Shown here one piece after another: positions 14,084 through 20,413 of a DNA stretch of 37,542 bases; position 1 is the first letter of the stretch, and each line of letters starts with the position of its first letter. This DNA comes from a virus, in the IMG/VR virus record IMGVR_UViG_3300003324_000445, positions 1-37,542 of that record. One strand, 5' to 3'. Position numbers and translations under genes: made by a program. The notes beneath the pieces are model-generated. The model made no database searches. It was not told the DNA's origin and worked only from the letters and a program-made list of their open reading frames with translations.

Positions 14084-14386
14084 ATGAAGAATAGAAAAGC
14101 TATATCCCGTCCCGGTTCTGAAATGGAATACGGCACTATGGGCAAGTATGAGCGTCGTATGGACGAACTTGCTCACCAAAGAGCTCAACAGGTTGCTGAT
14201 TCTTTCTGGCGTGGTGTAGATCCGCGTCGCCGTGTAGAAAAAGCCGAAGGCGGAATGGTCCAAGAGGATCCAAGGGCCATGGCCAACCTTTCTGAAAAAG
14301 CAATCCATACCGAGTATCCAAGACGTTCTCTCAATTCATTCGGCTTTGGCACTAATCAACTTTTTGATACTGAAGGGTATCTATGA
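14084..14386 (+). CDS. Small head protein, paralogue of the 13572 gene (100 aa)
   Basis: ATG 14084 follows AAAGGAAAGAT. The first ~45 residues are Arg/Glu-rich (KAISRPGSEMEYGTMGKYER, later AHQRAQQVADSFW). Residues ~50-80 carry the shared PRRR.E....GM-.-ED..A.AN motif followed by AIHTEYP. The C-terminus is less polar. The two motif genes flank the 49-aa basic protein. The stop overlaps the ATG of the peptidase gene. A virion component is inferred. Confidence 0.65.
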   Translation: MKNRKAISRPGSEMEYGTMGKYERRMDELAHQRAQQVADSFWRGVDPRRRVEKAEGGMVQEDPRAMANLSEKAIHTEYPRRSLNSFGFGTNQLFDTEGYL

Positions 14387-15189
14387 TCTCATTAGCACTC
14401 TTATTCTCACTCATTATGAACTGCGCTGCTGACCATCATGAAGGGTACACGCATCTTGCTTGTGATGTTAAGCCCATCAAGAGAGCTTCACGTAGGCATC
14501 TGCTTGATACCACCGTTTCTAGCAACAACTGGTGTGGCTATGTAGCAGCTCCTAATCTCCTTAATCCTGTTCTTCATCAGGTAACAGATGTTGAAGGTGC
14601 ATGGATTGTTCCTAATGTCGTTGCAGCAGGGGAAAATACCTCCTGTTCAGTTTGGGTTGGAATAGATGGATCAGGAAGTAGAACTGTTGAACAGCTTGGA
14701 ACAGAGCATGATTGGACAAATGGTCAAGAAGTTCATTATGCCTGGTACGAAATGTTTCCAGCAGGAAGCCATGAGATCGTAGGATTTCCTGTTGAAGTGG
14801 GTGATTCCATTAGCGCTTCAGTTACTTTCGACCCTTTAACTAGCTTTATGCCTGCTTCTCAGAATCTGTTTATTCTCGAGATCACTAATCACACTAAAAG
14901 AGTCTACAGCATTATCCCCTGCATAGCTCCGGCCATTCTGGACCGTGTCTGTGCGGAGTGGGTAGTAGAAGCTCCCTGGCTCAATCAAACGCTTCCCCTA
15001 TCTGATTTTACCCTTATCTATCTTTCAGGATGCACCTGCTCGATGAAAGGTATCAAAGGGGCGATAAATAACCCAGCGTGGGCTTGTGAGGCGATGAATA
15101 TGATTGCTCCTGACGGAACTTCTAAAGCTTTGGCATCGGCTCTTTCTGCTGATGGATCGTCTTTCTCGGTGAGTTGGATGCACGTATAA
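14383..15189 (+). CDS. Peptidase family G1 (eqolisin-type glutamic peptidase), exported (268 aa)
   Basis: ATG 14383 overlaps the preceding stop and lies five bases after GAAGGG. The first ~16 residues (MISLALLFSLIMNCAADHH) look like a short signal peptide, followed by a basic pro-like segment (KPIKRASRRHLL). From residue 48 the sequence follows family G1: NNWCGYVAAP, then VEGAWIVPNV, SVWVGIDGSGS, TVEQLGTEHDW, YAWYEMFP and VEVGDSISASV, then CAEWVVEAPW. The catalytic pair of G1 enzymes is Gln plus Glu. Q104 and a Glu of AEWVVE (E192/E196) are present, as are W91 and D95 near the substrate site. Length fits a 200-residue mature enzyme. Such a peptidase among head genes is odd. Lysis, envelope penetration or capsid maturation are all possible. 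Confidence 0.85.
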   Translation: MISLALLFSLIMNCAADHHEGYTHLACDVKPIKRASRRHLLDTTVSSNNWCGYVAAPNLLNPVLHQVTDVEGAWIVPNVVAAGENTSCSVWVGIDGSGSRTVEQLGTEHDWTNGQEVHYAWYEMFPAGSHEIVGFPVEVGDSISASVTFDPLTSFMPASQNLFILEITNHTKRVYSIIPCIAPAILDRVCAEWVVEAPWLNQTLPLSDFTLIYLSGCTCSMKGIKGAINNPAWACEAMNMIAPDGTSKALASALSADGSSFSVSWMHV

Positions 15190-16306: not shown

Positions 16307-17143
16307 ATGTCAATGCATTCCCTGCCGCCCGTGTCGCAGCAGCAGATAGATCTTATGAATAAAACCGCACAGAAGAATTTTGGAGTTGTGCCCGATGAAC
16401 CGGTACAAGAACAGGAAGTAGCTGAGCAAGAGACTCAAGAAGAAACTCCTATTGAAGCGGCTCCTGAACCTGAACCTGTACAAGAAGTTGCAACACCTGT
16501 TGCAAAACCGAGTGCCTATTCCAAAGAAGAGAATATGGCTCTTTTGCGTGAGCGTGCGCGTAAGGCGGAGGCTGAGCGTGAAGAGTTAATGCGCCAACTC
16601 CAATCTTATCAACAAAAACCAGTCCAAAACCAAGCCCAAGCTACCCAAGATCCTGAAGACTTTTCAGTAGGGGCAGATGATCTGGTTGAAGGTAAGCATC
16701 TAGCCAAGCTTCATAAAAAGATCCGTAGCCTTGAAGAGCAGGTTAATCAGAGCAAACAACAAAGCCAATCCTGGAACACAGAAGCTCGCTTGAAGCATCA
16801 GTATCCAGACTTTGATAAAGTTGTCTCTGCGTCTAATATTGCCTCACTCTCGGAGATGTACCCTGATGTCGCTAAGACTATTGGTGATTCTCAAGACTTA
16901 TATAGTAAAGCCGTTACTGCTTATACCGTCATCAAGAACCTTGGCATCTATACCGATGATTTTCAGAAGGATAAGGTGATAGCTTCCAAGAATGCGGCTA
17001 AACCAAGACCGTTGACCAGCATTGCTCCTACACAGGCTGATACTCCATTGTCTCGTGCGAATGCATTTGCGGACGGATTGACTGATGACCTTGCCAAGCA
17101 GTTACGCCAAGAGATGTTCCAAGCCATGAAAAATAGATATTAA
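16307..17143 (+). CDS. Scaffolding protein (278 aa)
   Basis: ATG 16307 lies five bases after AAAAAAGGAG. It has the typical scaffold composition: a Pro/Glu/Gln-rich acidic N-terminus (residues ~25-65) and a charged coiled coil (LLRERARKAEAEREELMRQL, and KLHKKIRSLEEQVNQSKQQS). A middle domain reads ARLKHQYPDFDKVVS, then YPDVAKTIG. A short basic C-terminal helix (DDLAKQLRQEMFQAMKNRY) probably contacts the capsid protein. It lies directly before the capsid region, as scaffolds usually do, and is followed by a strong terminator. Confidence 0.8.
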   Translation: MSMHSLPPVSQQQIDLMNKTAQKNFGVVPDEPVQEQEVAEQETQEETPIEAAPEPEPVQEVATPVAKPSAYSKEENMALLRERARKAEAEREELMRQLQSYQQKPVQNQAQATQDPEDFSVGADDLVEGKHLAKLHKKIRSLEEQVNQSKQQSQSWNTEARLKHQYPDFDKVVSASNIASLSEMYPDVAKTIGDSQDLYSKAVTAYTVIKNLGIYTDDFQKDKVIASKNAAKPRPLTSIAPTQADTPLSRANAFADGLTDDLAKQLRQEMFQAMKNRY

Positions 17144-17401: not shown

Positions 17402-18046
17402 CTATCGTTTGCCTCTATTATTGCAGTTATCCTTATGCGATACCCATCGGCAATTGGATGGCTCATAGTCTCCGTCATTGTTAATTCTATCTATGGTCGT
17501 CTTCTCTGGGCGTTCACCCATGTCTGCTATAAAGTTCTCGAACTTCATCCACCTTTCGCATACTTTTATTCCCCTTCCGCCATACCAGTAATAGGAAGTA
17601 GATTTCGGATCTCGACAACGACTCAACATCGAGCTCCATACTTTGTATATCGCAGTTCCGTGCATCCCGTGCTTTACGTTTCCTTTCGAAACTTCTCGAT
17701 TGTGACACATAAAGCATTGGGTGGATTTATGTGCTTTCAGGTCAGATAGTAAATGCTTAGATTCTTTACCGCACTCACATCTTGCTTGATACTGATGCGA
17801 ATTATTATGAGTCCCCAAAAATGAAACTATCGTCCATTTACCGTATTTTTTCCCGATGAACCTGGCAGGATTATAGAGTTCTGCGTACTGGCATTCTCGG
17901 CACTGTTTTCCTTTTCCTGCTCTTAGCTCGGTTCCCGACTTTATACGTATATTTCCGCAATCGCATATGCACTCGTACTGCTTTCCTGGCTTATCCATGT
18001 CAACTTCTTGGATAACAGTCCATCTTCCAAATTTTGTTCCCACCAT
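17402..18046 (-). CDS. Free-standing HNH/AP2-type homing endonuclease (214 aa)
   Basis: I chose the ATG at 18046, three bases after AGGAAAG. The frame is open 53 codons further upstream but without a start signal. The first ~115 residues hold two repeats of a zinc-ribbon-like DNA-binding unit: G-.-KFGRWTVI..., YECICDCG..., C..C, and [10 protein letters not shown]..., YQARCECG..., C..C. The C-terminal ~90 residues read [38 protein letters not shown], then [20 protein letters not shown]. This is the phage homing-endonuclease domain common in free-standing HNH genes. It is on the strand opposite to all neighbours, so it is a mobile intruder just upstream of the capsid gene. Confidence 0.88.
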
Positions 18047-18251
18047 GTTCTTTCCTATAGTTAATTTGCTGCGTAATCGGAGCTCGCATCTCCAAATTGA
18101 TCCGTCCAAGTCTTCGGCCAAAGATGAAAACGGAGTCGGCGTACGGGACTCGCCAACCCAGACGTATGAAGTTCTCGTCAGACTTAAGTATAACATGCAC
18201 GTCATGATTCATAAAGAGTCTGTGTGCTATTCTATAACTTAGGAGGCCATA

Positions 18252-18563
18252 ATGGCTATAACAACGACTTCAACCTTGCCGGCGCCCGTCCAGCAAAGTT
18301 TTAGTTACAAACTTTTGTCAGTACCAGTTCCCAACATGATTCATAAAATACCTGCGATGCGTAAAAACATGCCACGCAATGGTGGTACAACTTTACGTAT
18401 GAGACGGTATAACGCTTTAAATACAGCAATGGTTCCACTTGGAAACTCAGGCGTTACTCCCCCTGCACAAAATCTTACTGCAGTGGACATAGACGCCAAA
18501 ATATCATTCTACGGAACATATGTACAGTTGAATGAGCAGGTAACTCTACAAAATCAAGACCCT
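18252..18563 (+). CDS. Major capsid protein, exon 1 (residues 1-104)
   Basis: ATG 18252 follows TTAGGAGGCCATA. The product is the N-terminal third of an N4-gp56-family major capsid protein: LLSVPVPNMIHKIPAMRKNMP, then TTLRMRRYNALNTAMVPLGN, and FYGTYVQLNEQVTLQNQDP. Without splicing the frame continues for only seven more codons to a TGA at 18585. Joining CCT (18561-18563) to GTA (19775) gives QDP-VLNECAARLGVSLRQTED, a continuous family sequence with the frame preserved. The spliced protein is 316 residues. It is the HK97-fold shell subunit, by family. The exon ends in T, as group I splice sites require. Confidence 0.9.
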
Positions 18564-19774
18564 AGACTTAATTTGGTGTTCGCGTGAGTTGTATTAAATA
18601 GTGAGGATGTTATACTTCTTATATAACTAAAACTATATAAGAGGTGATTATGGAAAACGGGAATACATTGATGGCGTATATAGCGGGATTATTTGACGGC
18701 GACGGTAGCTTTACCTTAGGAAGGGCAAAACCTTCCAGGGAAGGTCAGTCGCATCTTTATTATCCTCTTATACAGTTCTGCAATAGGGATAGAAGTGCGT
18801 TGGGTATTATAAAAAACGTATTTGGTGGCTATATAAACACAAGGAAACCCTACGTGGCCAAAGACGGAAGCCCAAGGCAAACTTCTTATACTCTAAAAAT
18901 AGAAAAATCCACGCATTGTGCTCCTCTTCTTGAGTCCTTGATGCCATATCTTATAACAAAGCGAGAACGGGCAGATTTCTTGTTGTCTTTTATAAATAAA
19001 AACCCATTTGTTCGTGGTAGCAATAAGCTGTCTAATGAAATAGTGTCTTCTCGCGAGCGAGACTACATTCAAATGAAGCTTTTAAATGACCATAGAGAAG
19101 GTAACTACAAAATCTCTCTAAGATACGCTAGGCGTAACAGCTTAGATGAGTGCTTTTGGGCTTATATATCTGGTCTACTCGACACTGATGGTTCGTTCTC
19201 TATAAAAAGAGAAGTGAGAAAGAACGCTAAAAATCCTGTTTATGGGCCTGCTATTTTACTAACGATGATTGACTCTAAGGCGATTCAGTATGTTAGAGAT
19301 AACTGTGAATTAGGGGTCATAATGATGGTAAAGTCCAAGGCGGCAACTCAAGGATTTTGTTATAGGTTTGGAATATATGGACGAGAAGATTCTTCCCGGT
19401 TTATACGTAAGTGTCTTCCGTATTTAACAATTAAAAAGGACGCGGCATTAATCTTGTTAGATTTCTGCGAGAAGTATGTTTCTTTCGCTGGTCCTCAAGG
19501 GGTTCCAGACAAGGAGATTGTATTTCGTGAGGATTGCTATCAAAGATTAGTTCATGTGAACAAATATGGGGTCTCTAAATCTCCTCTGGTTGACTTAAAA
19601 ACCTTACCGGATAGTGCCGAAGGCAATAAGGCGGAAGCAGCGCAAGCGTGCACCGTGAACGCAGTAAGCGAGGAGACGCCGAAAGGCGATGCGGTACTCT
19701 GAACATTGCAGAAATGCAGTGAGGTAGGCTGAGAAGATCTACCCGCCCGAAAGGGTCACAAAAGTAACAGATTG
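18564..19774 (+). ncRNA. Group I intron in the capsid gene (1211 bases)
   Basis: Boundaries come from protein continuity: the exon ends in T (18563) and the intron ends in G (19774), as in group I introns. A likely P1 pairs exon GACCCU (18558-18563) with GGTGTT (18575-18580), with the expected U-G pair at the splice site and one mismatch. TTAAT (18568-18572) could pair with ATTAA of exon 2 (19777-19781) as P10. The last 160 bases are packed with small stems: TGCC-GAA-GGCA (19615), one GCAA loop (19637-19651), and GAAA loops at 19677-19688, 19704-19721 and 19746-19755. A GGTAG/CTACC pairing (19723/19739) is also present. This is the compact catalytic core. The intron also carries a homing endonuclease gene. 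Confidence 0.85.
18650..19702 (+). CDS. Intron-encoded LAGLIDADG homing endonuclease (350 aa)
   Basis: ATG 18650 lies five bases after AAGAGG. A GTG at 18644 is in frame but overlaps the site. Two LAGLIDADG motifs define a monomeric double-motif enzyme: YIAGLFDGDGSF at ~residues 10-20 and YISGLLDTDGSF at ~171-182, each with the catalytic acidic residue. Each is followed by an alpha-beta DNA-binding half, for example the KSTHCAPLLESLMPYLITKR segment. The enzyme cuts intronless capsid alleles and so spreads the intron. Some also act as maturases. The last ~29 codons (from ~19615) run through the intron's catalytic-core stems. That explains the odd Ala/Glu-rich tail with no family resemblance. 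Confidence 0.93.
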   Translation: MENGNTLMAYIAGLFDGDGSFTLGRAKPSREGQSHLYYPLIQFCNRDRSALGIIKNVFGGYINTRKPYVAKDGSPRQTSYTLKIEKSTHCAPLLESLMPYLITKRERADFLLSFINKNPFVRGSNKLSNEIVSSRERDYIQMKLLNDHREGNYKISLRYARRNSLDECFWAYISGLLDTDGSFSIKREVRKNAKNPVYGPAILLTMIDSKAIQYVRDNCELGVIMMVKSKAATQGFCYRFGIYGREDSSRFIRKCLPYLTIKKDAALILLDFCEKYVSFAGPQGVPDKEIVFREDCYQRLVHVNKYGVSKSPLVDLKTLPDSAEGNKAEAAQACTVNAVSEETPKGDAVL

Positions 19775-20413
19775 GTATTAAACGAATGTGCAGCACGTCT
19801 TGGCGTGTCACTTCGTCAAACAGAAGACCAATTGACTCGTGACATGTTGGCTGCAACAGCATCCTTCATCAACTGTGTTGGTGGTGTCGATGGTGATGTT
19901 CCGACTGAAATAACTCGCTCTGATGTTGATACCGTGGTTCGTGCCTTGTTGAATAACAACGCATATACCATCATGGATAACATTGAGGGTGAAGATAAGT
20001 TTGGTACAGCGCCAGTTCGTGACGCGTATTTTGCTCTTTGCAGCACAAACTTAACAGGAAACTTGGATAACATTGCTGGCTTTGTACAAAAGAACCAGTA
20101 CCCAGCTCCTATGAACGCTCTCCGTTCAGAATGGGGTGCGGCAGGCAACCTCCGTTTCCTTATATCTTCAATCGGTTCACAAGTTGCTAATGCATCAAGC
20201 TTAGGCAATACCGTATACAACATCTTCTGTGTTGGTATGGAAGCTTATGCATGCATTGAGCAAGACGGATACAGCGCAAGCTTTATCTATCGACCACCGA
20301 TATATGATGGCCCATTAGCGCTTAACGCTTCTGTAGGCTACAAATTCGCTGAAGTCCCACGTATCACAAATGACCTTTGGGTCATCAACCTACGCGCAAC
20401 TTTAGCAAGTTAA
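19775..20413 (+). CDS. Major capsid protein, exon 2 (residues 105-316)
   Basis: The exon continues the capsid frame with VLNECAARLGVSLRQTEDQLTRDML. Then come TDVDTVVRALL-type and ANASSLGNTVYNIFCVGMEAY segments and the family C-terminus (YDGPLALNASVGYKFAEV, then NDLWVINLRATLAS). An unspliced TTG at 19772 could start translation but has no ribosome site. Splicing is therefore needed for shell protein. It ends nine bases before the next structural gene. N4-gp56-type capsid proteins are usually 300-400 residues, so the joined 316 fits. Confidence 0.9.
   Translation, partial: VLNECAARLGVSLRQTEDQLTRDMLAATASFINCVGGVDGDVPTEITRSDVDTVVRALLNNNAYTIMDNIEGEDKFGTAPVRDAYFALCSTNLTGNLDNIAGFVQKNQYPAPMNALRSEWGAAGNLRFLISSIGSQVANASSLGNTVYNIFCVGMEAYACIEQDGYSASFIYRPPIYDGPLALNASVGYKFAEVPRITNDLWVINLRATLAS

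Follow-up and report, generated by a model that had tools for sequence, protein, structure and literature searches.

Sequence comparison confirms that the N4-gp56-type major capsid gene of the phage studied here is interrupted by a group I intron carrying a homing-endonuclease gene. The phage is represented by the IMG/VR virus record IMGVR_UViG_3300003324_000445, whose 37,542 bases, with genes including terminase, portal, capsid and tail, were analyzed as a whole and are termed the window. The position of the intron, its group I fold, its P1 and P10 pairings, the family of its endonuclease and the existence of intronless alleles are shown by comparison with related phages; splicing in cells, endonuclease activity and homing are inferred. 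We give a probability of about 0.96 to the reading in which the window intron splices as an ordinary group I intron and spreads by LAGLIDADG homing.

The capsid gene was compared across 80 close loci drawn from a scan of IMG/VR. Exon 1 (18252..18563, + strand, 104 aa ending in QDP) and exon 2 (19775..20413, + strand, 212 aa plus stop) match a single PHROG family, phrog_1357 "major head protein", over adjoining profile ranges (residues 22-129 and 134-300, respectively), and join in frame to give 316 aa. In 35 of the 80 relatives the gene is uninterrupted, with the two exons contiguous, and the reading passes straight through the window junction QDP/VLN. This junction, EQVTLQNQDPVLNECAARLG (EQVTLQNQDP/VLNECAARLG), is letter-identical in 28 of these 35 genes, and the best overall identity between the joined window capsid and an intronless relative reaches 94%. 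The initial annotation, made from the sequence alone, had split the gene after T18563 and after G19774, with exon 1 ending in QDP, exon 2 starting with VLNECAARLG and the frame kept; the intronless genes bear out each of these points. It had also pointed to the N4-gp56 capsid proteins. The joined window protein barely passes the Pfam Phage_capsid_4 model (27.1 versus a cut-off of 27.0 bits), which neither capsid half reached alone, and the intronless relative L008 is an N4-gp56 capsid protein according to TIGR04387 (144 bits versus a cut-off of 60, E 6e-42). The latter model was run on L008 and not on the joined window protein, which shares about 93-94% identity with such relatives; with these two matches the assignment holds. 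That capsid synthesis requires splicing is inferred from the broken frame, without RNA evidence.

Two neighboring genes deserve a mention. An HNH endonuclease gene (window 17402-18205, minus strand; phrog_374, E 7e-66) is inserted in reverse between the preceding ORF, which ends at 17143, and the capsid gene; our covariance models R1 and R2, described below, found no intron core there. Further upstream, at 14383-15189, a 268-aa ORF without a PHROG match resembles, by eye, a secreted G1/eqolisin-type peptidase.

The intron occupies 18564..19774 on the + strand (1211 nt), with borders set by the intronless relatives; it is preceded by U and its last base is G. About 19 introns of the relative set lie at this same site (cds 312). 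The end of exon 1, AAGACCCU (18556..18563, +), forms the exon strand of P1 and makes 7 bp with the internal guide sequence GGGGUCU (19568..19574, +), with a U.G pair at the splice site. Directly upstream of the guide, AAUAU (19563..19567, +) can be read from the sequence as a P10 strand pairing with GUAUU of exon 2 (19775-19779) over 5 bp, one of them G.U. The P1 and P10 candidates that the initial annotation had merely announced can thereby be specified. The complementarity between guide and exon is seen again at other insertion sites: nearly all mapped introns, at 14 sites, have just 5' of P3 a guide that is complementary to their own exon end and forms the U.G pair at the splice site, and nearly all mapped relatives have the T before the intron and the G at its end.

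The ribozyme core extends on the + strand from the guide sequence to the terminal G (19568..19774). It contains P3 (19580-19586 with 19670-19676), in which 6 of 7 pairs show double changes, and, from the comparative structure, P4 (19594-19597/19627-19630), P5 (19602-19603/19622-19623), P6/P6a (19631-19638/19650-19656), P9 (19704-19721), P9.1 (19723-19743) and P9.2 (19746-19755). P7, the guanosine-binding helix, is formed by 19661 and 19663-19666 with 19695-19699, C19662 being bulged, and encloses P8 (19677-19688); the P3/P7 pseudoknot is present in the window core. A C-G to G-C swap in the window P7 is compensated and common to three relatives. The GNRA-type hairpins noticed earlier in the 3' part of the intron are real and correspond to the loops of P8, P9 and P9.2. 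This structure, built by hand from P3 to P9.2, was evaluated on an alignment of the cores of 14 relatives from several insertion sites, where 97.4% of the cells are paired and 31 of 44 pairs have changed on both sides. Its covariation score is 0.572, versus 0.203 for shuffled alignments (none of 500 shuffles reaches it); when the structure is slid along the alignment, the score is 0.07-0.13 and the paired fraction drops to 37-44%. ORF-less relatives of 195-228 nt demonstrate that the conserved unit is the core alone. A group II intron, an intein and a free-standing cassette were also considered and rejected: there is no D5/AY end, a stop codon breaks the frame, and the covariation is that of a group I intron. 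Compared with known phages, the intron DNA yields chance 26-mers only.

Covariance models gave a consistent picture. Model R1 matches 19568-19774 at 197.7 bits and R2, built without the window sequence, matches the same interval at 180.5 bits (E about 2e-51), although these E-values are rough because the models were short-calibrated; this is the sole credible match of either model in the window. Rfam, on the other hand, returned nothing on the window and four relatives, at gathering as well as relaxed thresholds, and its group I model RF00028 remained blank on the window even at E 5. The initial annotation had proposed that the absence of a group I covariance hit would refute the intron. Taken to the letter, that refutation has occurred with RF00028; our own model, however, finds the core, and the group I identity stands on this match together with the core covariation. 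Indeed, a match to RF00028 is a database criterion rather than a defining feature of group I introns, and the control introns T4 td and T4 nrdB score only 36.9 and 35.7, both under the gathering score of 50, so that a miss cannot count as a refutation. Whereas these T4 introns are scored below threshold, the window family is not recognized at all, including its compact ORF-less members. It was because of this low sensitivity that we mapped the insertions in the relatives and aligned their cores, and surveys based on RF00028 must consequently undercount phage introns. The model search gave 137 hits in 75 loci; those that were placed fall in the capsid gene, and a single hit concerns T4 nrdB, which R1 and R2 match only weakly (E about 1e-3 to 2e-4). 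As far as sequence can tell, the first interpretation of the insert as a group I intron is supported.

As also proposed at the outset, the intron carries a LAGLIDADG endonuclease gene (18650..19702, + strand, ATG at 18650). The 350-aa product has two LAGLIDADG motifs, YIAGLFDGDGSF and YISGLLDTDGSF, and matches PF00961 with 36 bits (cut-off 23.1, E 1.4e-8); PF14528 is also above its cut-off. Its closest sequence with a solved structure in the PDB is I-MsoI (E 5.7e-12). Because about 1 kb separates the guide sequence from the 5' splice site, the gene sits in the P1 loop, from which it extends into the core: the 3' end of the endonuclease is encoded by the ribozyme, with the stop codon directly 3' of the P7 3' strand. 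The same layout, an endonuclease in L1 and a distant guide, is found in L021 and in L081/L082, the latter having a 41% identical enzyme in the same loop at the same intron site. Just ahead of the ORF, a 12-bp hairpin (18614..18645, +; -12.3 kcal/mol, z -2.8) carries in its 3' arm the Shine-Dalgarno-like AGAGG of the endonuclease gene, and we infer that it restrains endonuclease translation. In T4 td, too, the endonuclease start is sequestered in a hairpin. Activity and homing of the enzyme are likewise inferred: cleavage data are lacking, and intronless alleles exist.

From these elements, the window intron would work as follows. The end of exon 1 would pair with GGGGUCU about 1 kb further 3', the endonuclease gene being looped out; the folded core, P3 to P9.2, would bind guanosine at P7 and cut after U18563; exon 1 would then be joined to exon 2 between G19774 and G19775, with P10 holding exon 2, and the 316-aa capsid frame would be restored. 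The LAGLIDADG enzyme would most likely cut intronless capsid genes of co-infecting phages, into which the intron would be copied. What speaks against this reading is the lack of RNA data, and since a 1-kb L1 separates the two P1 strands, co-transcriptional folding could be slow. One could also imagine that the capsid is made as two separate polypeptides around a free-standing endonuclease cassette that is never spliced, as the exon 1 frame reads 24 nt into the intron before it stops (ORF 18252-18587), and TTG 19772 could serve as a start for exon 2. However, no Shine-Dalgarno-like sequence is evident upstream of this TTG, the 3' end of the insert is a group I core that is conserved and covaries, with guide sequence, P10 and terminal G, and the relatives are interrupted at about 20 positions, which split proteins could not tolerate; we find this scenario hardly credible. 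It is just as difficult to believe in a decayed intron that no longer splices, left over in a defective phage genome. The absence of RNA evidence and the metagenomic origin of the record leave room for it, but every core helix pairs, the change in P7 is a compensated one, and the reading frames of the two exons and of the endonuclease are all open.

The intron of the window belongs, judging from the mapped insertions, to a family that Rfam does not detect and that has spread into the capsid gene at about 20 positions in related soil phages. In the first set of loci, full introns were located at cds 26, 37, 81, 93, 157, 166, 210, 237, 278, 290, 296, 312, 314, 543 and 639, a few boundaries being approximate, and later loci added cds 350, 354, 432, 516, 783 and 824. 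The most fragmented gene is that of L130 (8624-11077), with seven exons and six interruptions (at 237, 264, 290, 312, 783 and 824) of 424, 31, 195, 801, 206 and 210 nt, the in silico removal of which yields a complete capsid protein.

One site stands apart. More than 50 phages have at cds 264 an insertion of 28-75 nt with P1, P10 and a terminal G; the common class measures 28-41 nt, and divergent phages reach about 75 nt. These mini-introns have no catalytic core of their own, their length leaving no room for P3-P8; they bear group I splice sites but, strictly speaking, cannot be called group I introns. All 48 common-class mini-introns contain an in-frame stop, and the exon that follows codes for TYVQLNEQ or similar peptides and shows synonymous changes, so that the mini-intron must be either removed or skipped. 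We rejected the possibility that the double insertion at cds 264 and 290/314 is an alignment artefact: the stretch between the two insertions is a coding exon that varies synonymously, and every group I splice-site pairing is present in the small one. L018 illustrates the anatomy, with UUUACGGU followed by the mini-intron AAAGGUGCCGUAACAGUUUAUUGUUGAG (L018:5171-5198), the segment ACCUACGUUACAAUAAACGAGCAGGU and then a full intron. Its P1, GCCGUA with UACGGU, extends to the splice site, where the U.G pair stands; AGGU, directly 5' of the guide, pairs as P10 with ACCU of the 3' exon; and the last base is G. Three bases past the guide, GUUUAUUGU forms a further helix, the bridge, with the exon sequence ACAAUAAAC, which borders without a gap on the 8-base P1 strand of the following intron. 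The bridge is usually 7-12 bp long, shows compensatory changes and has its exon side abutting the P1 of the downstream intron. Odd geometries were seen in L163, whose mini-intron has a longer, different loop, and in L186, whose bridge is imperfect; in L115 (11906-12689, reverse-complement coordinates) a mini-intron and full introns at 290 and 314 occur in one gene. The window phage has no mini-intron, and its cds 264 site reads TACGGA/ACA, without the required U.

The association with a downstream intron was evaluated on 48 distinct mini-introns picked by a pattern blind to that intron. All 48 are followed by the 5' end of a complete group I intron, at cds 290 (33), 314 (9), 350 (5) or 312 (1), and the bridge strand varies with the downstream site, abutting the P1 of that site. 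With a pairing register fixed by distances and not by pairing, 94.9% of the cells are paired, with 136 double-change cells and a score reached by none of 500 shuffles; the bridge shows double changes in 10 of its 10 pairs, and a one-base bulge interrupts it in a minority of the 290 class. P1, being fixed by the search pattern, cannot vary in this set. The P10 strand matches each of the four threonine codons (ACA/UGU, ACC/GGU, ACG/CGU, ACU/AGU). Swapping the bridge strands of 32 loci in the 290 class shortened the mean helix from 9.4 to 6.2 bp (0/2000). A converse search, keyed solely on the full intron at 290 and pooled with the earlier loci, gave 55 introns, of which 45 have a mini-intron, one (L163) is unclear and nine have none (L152, L154, L156, L157, L161, L162, L171, L172 and L174, the call of an over-permissive parser in the last being false). 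The dependence is thus one-directional: mini-introns always come with a downstream intron, but 290 introns exist without a mini-intron. In this converse set P1 also covaries (UACGGU/GCCGUA; UUCGGU/GCCGAA in L155 and L168; UUUGGU/GCCAAA in L158 and L159), and longer P10 pairings follow changed exons (ACGGG/CCCGU in L158, ACUGGCU/AGCCAGU in L168, CAAU/GUUG in L167). Energy folding predicts mini-intron P1, bridge and next P1 as three consecutive hairpins (z -5.4 and -3.4).

As the mini-introns have no room for a core, the core must come from elsewhere, and since the bridge is fixed against the P1 of the downstream intron, the core of that intron is the best candidate. We think it probable, in the absence of RNA evidence, that the downstream ribozyme excises both its own intron and the mini-intron and so acts as a natural cis-acting spliceozyme; that the mini-intron is a parasitic or derived core-less substrate of this ribozyme is part of the same proposal and shares its likelihood. 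The guide of the mini-intron (P1 and P10), its terminal G and its bridge strand would together deliver its splice sites to the downstream core. The work could instead be done by the ribozyme of another intron, either in trans or from an upstream position, and L130, L089 and L107 do have a full intron upstream, at cds 237. We hold this to be unlikely, as the bridge nearly always ends at the downstream P1 strand, for four different sites (290, 312, 314 and 350), and changes in sequence with the downstream site. Still less probable is that the mini-introns remain unspliced and are skipped by the ribosome, as in the bypassing of T4 gene 60. The 28-41 nt of the common class are comparable to known bypass gaps and in-frame stops are present, but bypassing needs matched take-off and landing codons, and here the take-off codon would be GGT, whereas the landing triplet is variable (AAG, GAG, ATG, TTG, TAG) and does not match it. 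Moreover, the pairings are group I P1 and P10 helices that covary with the exon, and none of the 48 mini-introns lacks a downstream group I intron.

Several known systems can be compared with the window intron and its family. Group I introns T4 td and nrdB (group IA2) also interrupt protein-coding phage genes and combine a core with an endonuclease, but their endonucleases lie in other loops and are of the GIY-YIG or HNH type, and their peripheral helices differ. I-MsoI has one motif per chain and acts as a homodimer, whereas both motifs of the window enzyme lie in a single chain; host and target are different as well. A published precedent is mycobacteriophage LittleE (Cluster J), where splicing of a capsid-gene intron, "most likely" of group I, was demonstrated by RT-PCR and protein sequencing (PMC3706429). 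There too, the major capsid gene is split, with U at the end of the 5' exon, G at the end of the intron and an endonuclease inside; that endonuclease, however, is an HNH enzyme on the opposite strand, the capsid is HK97-like and not N4-gp56, and one site only is occupied (PMC3706429). The same paper cites Tuc2009 as a further case of a capsid-gene intron (PMC3706429), and the window intron alone is therefore of a known type. Bastillevirinae phages have many group I introns in their genes, with HNH or LAGLIDADG endonucleases, and the authors of that work remark that introns escape the Rfam and GISSD models (PMC11878797); in contrast to the family described here, the word "capsid" is absent from their main text and we found no core-less introns reported (PMC11878797).

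The contribution of the window is a well-supported group I intron in a capsid gene; its family escapes standard RNA libraries and cuts one gene into up to seven pieces in L130. As far as the searched open-access papers go, the arrangement at the level of the family, with its capsid sites and its mini-introns, is new, and neither core-less group I introns nor a natural spliceozyme were found in this literature; proof that the mini-introns are spliced would make that part new in kind. It would amount to a natural division of labour among group I ribozymes, between catalytic introns and core-less substrates. Such a step has long been postulated for group II introns on their way to the spliceosome; for group I it has, as far as we found, been achieved by engineering only. 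Engineered Tetrahymena spliceozymes, guided to both splice sites, remove a separate core-less intron of 64-100 nt from an mRNA (PMC4094466, PMC4509937), which proves that a group I core can excise such an intron (PMC4094466). The mini-intron proposal shares with them a group I ribozyme that excises a separate core-less intron (PMC4094466, PMC4509937). The spliceozymes, however, are engineered and act in trans, whereas the phage version would be natural and would act in cis, the mini-intron itself supplying the guide, P10 and the bridge strand.
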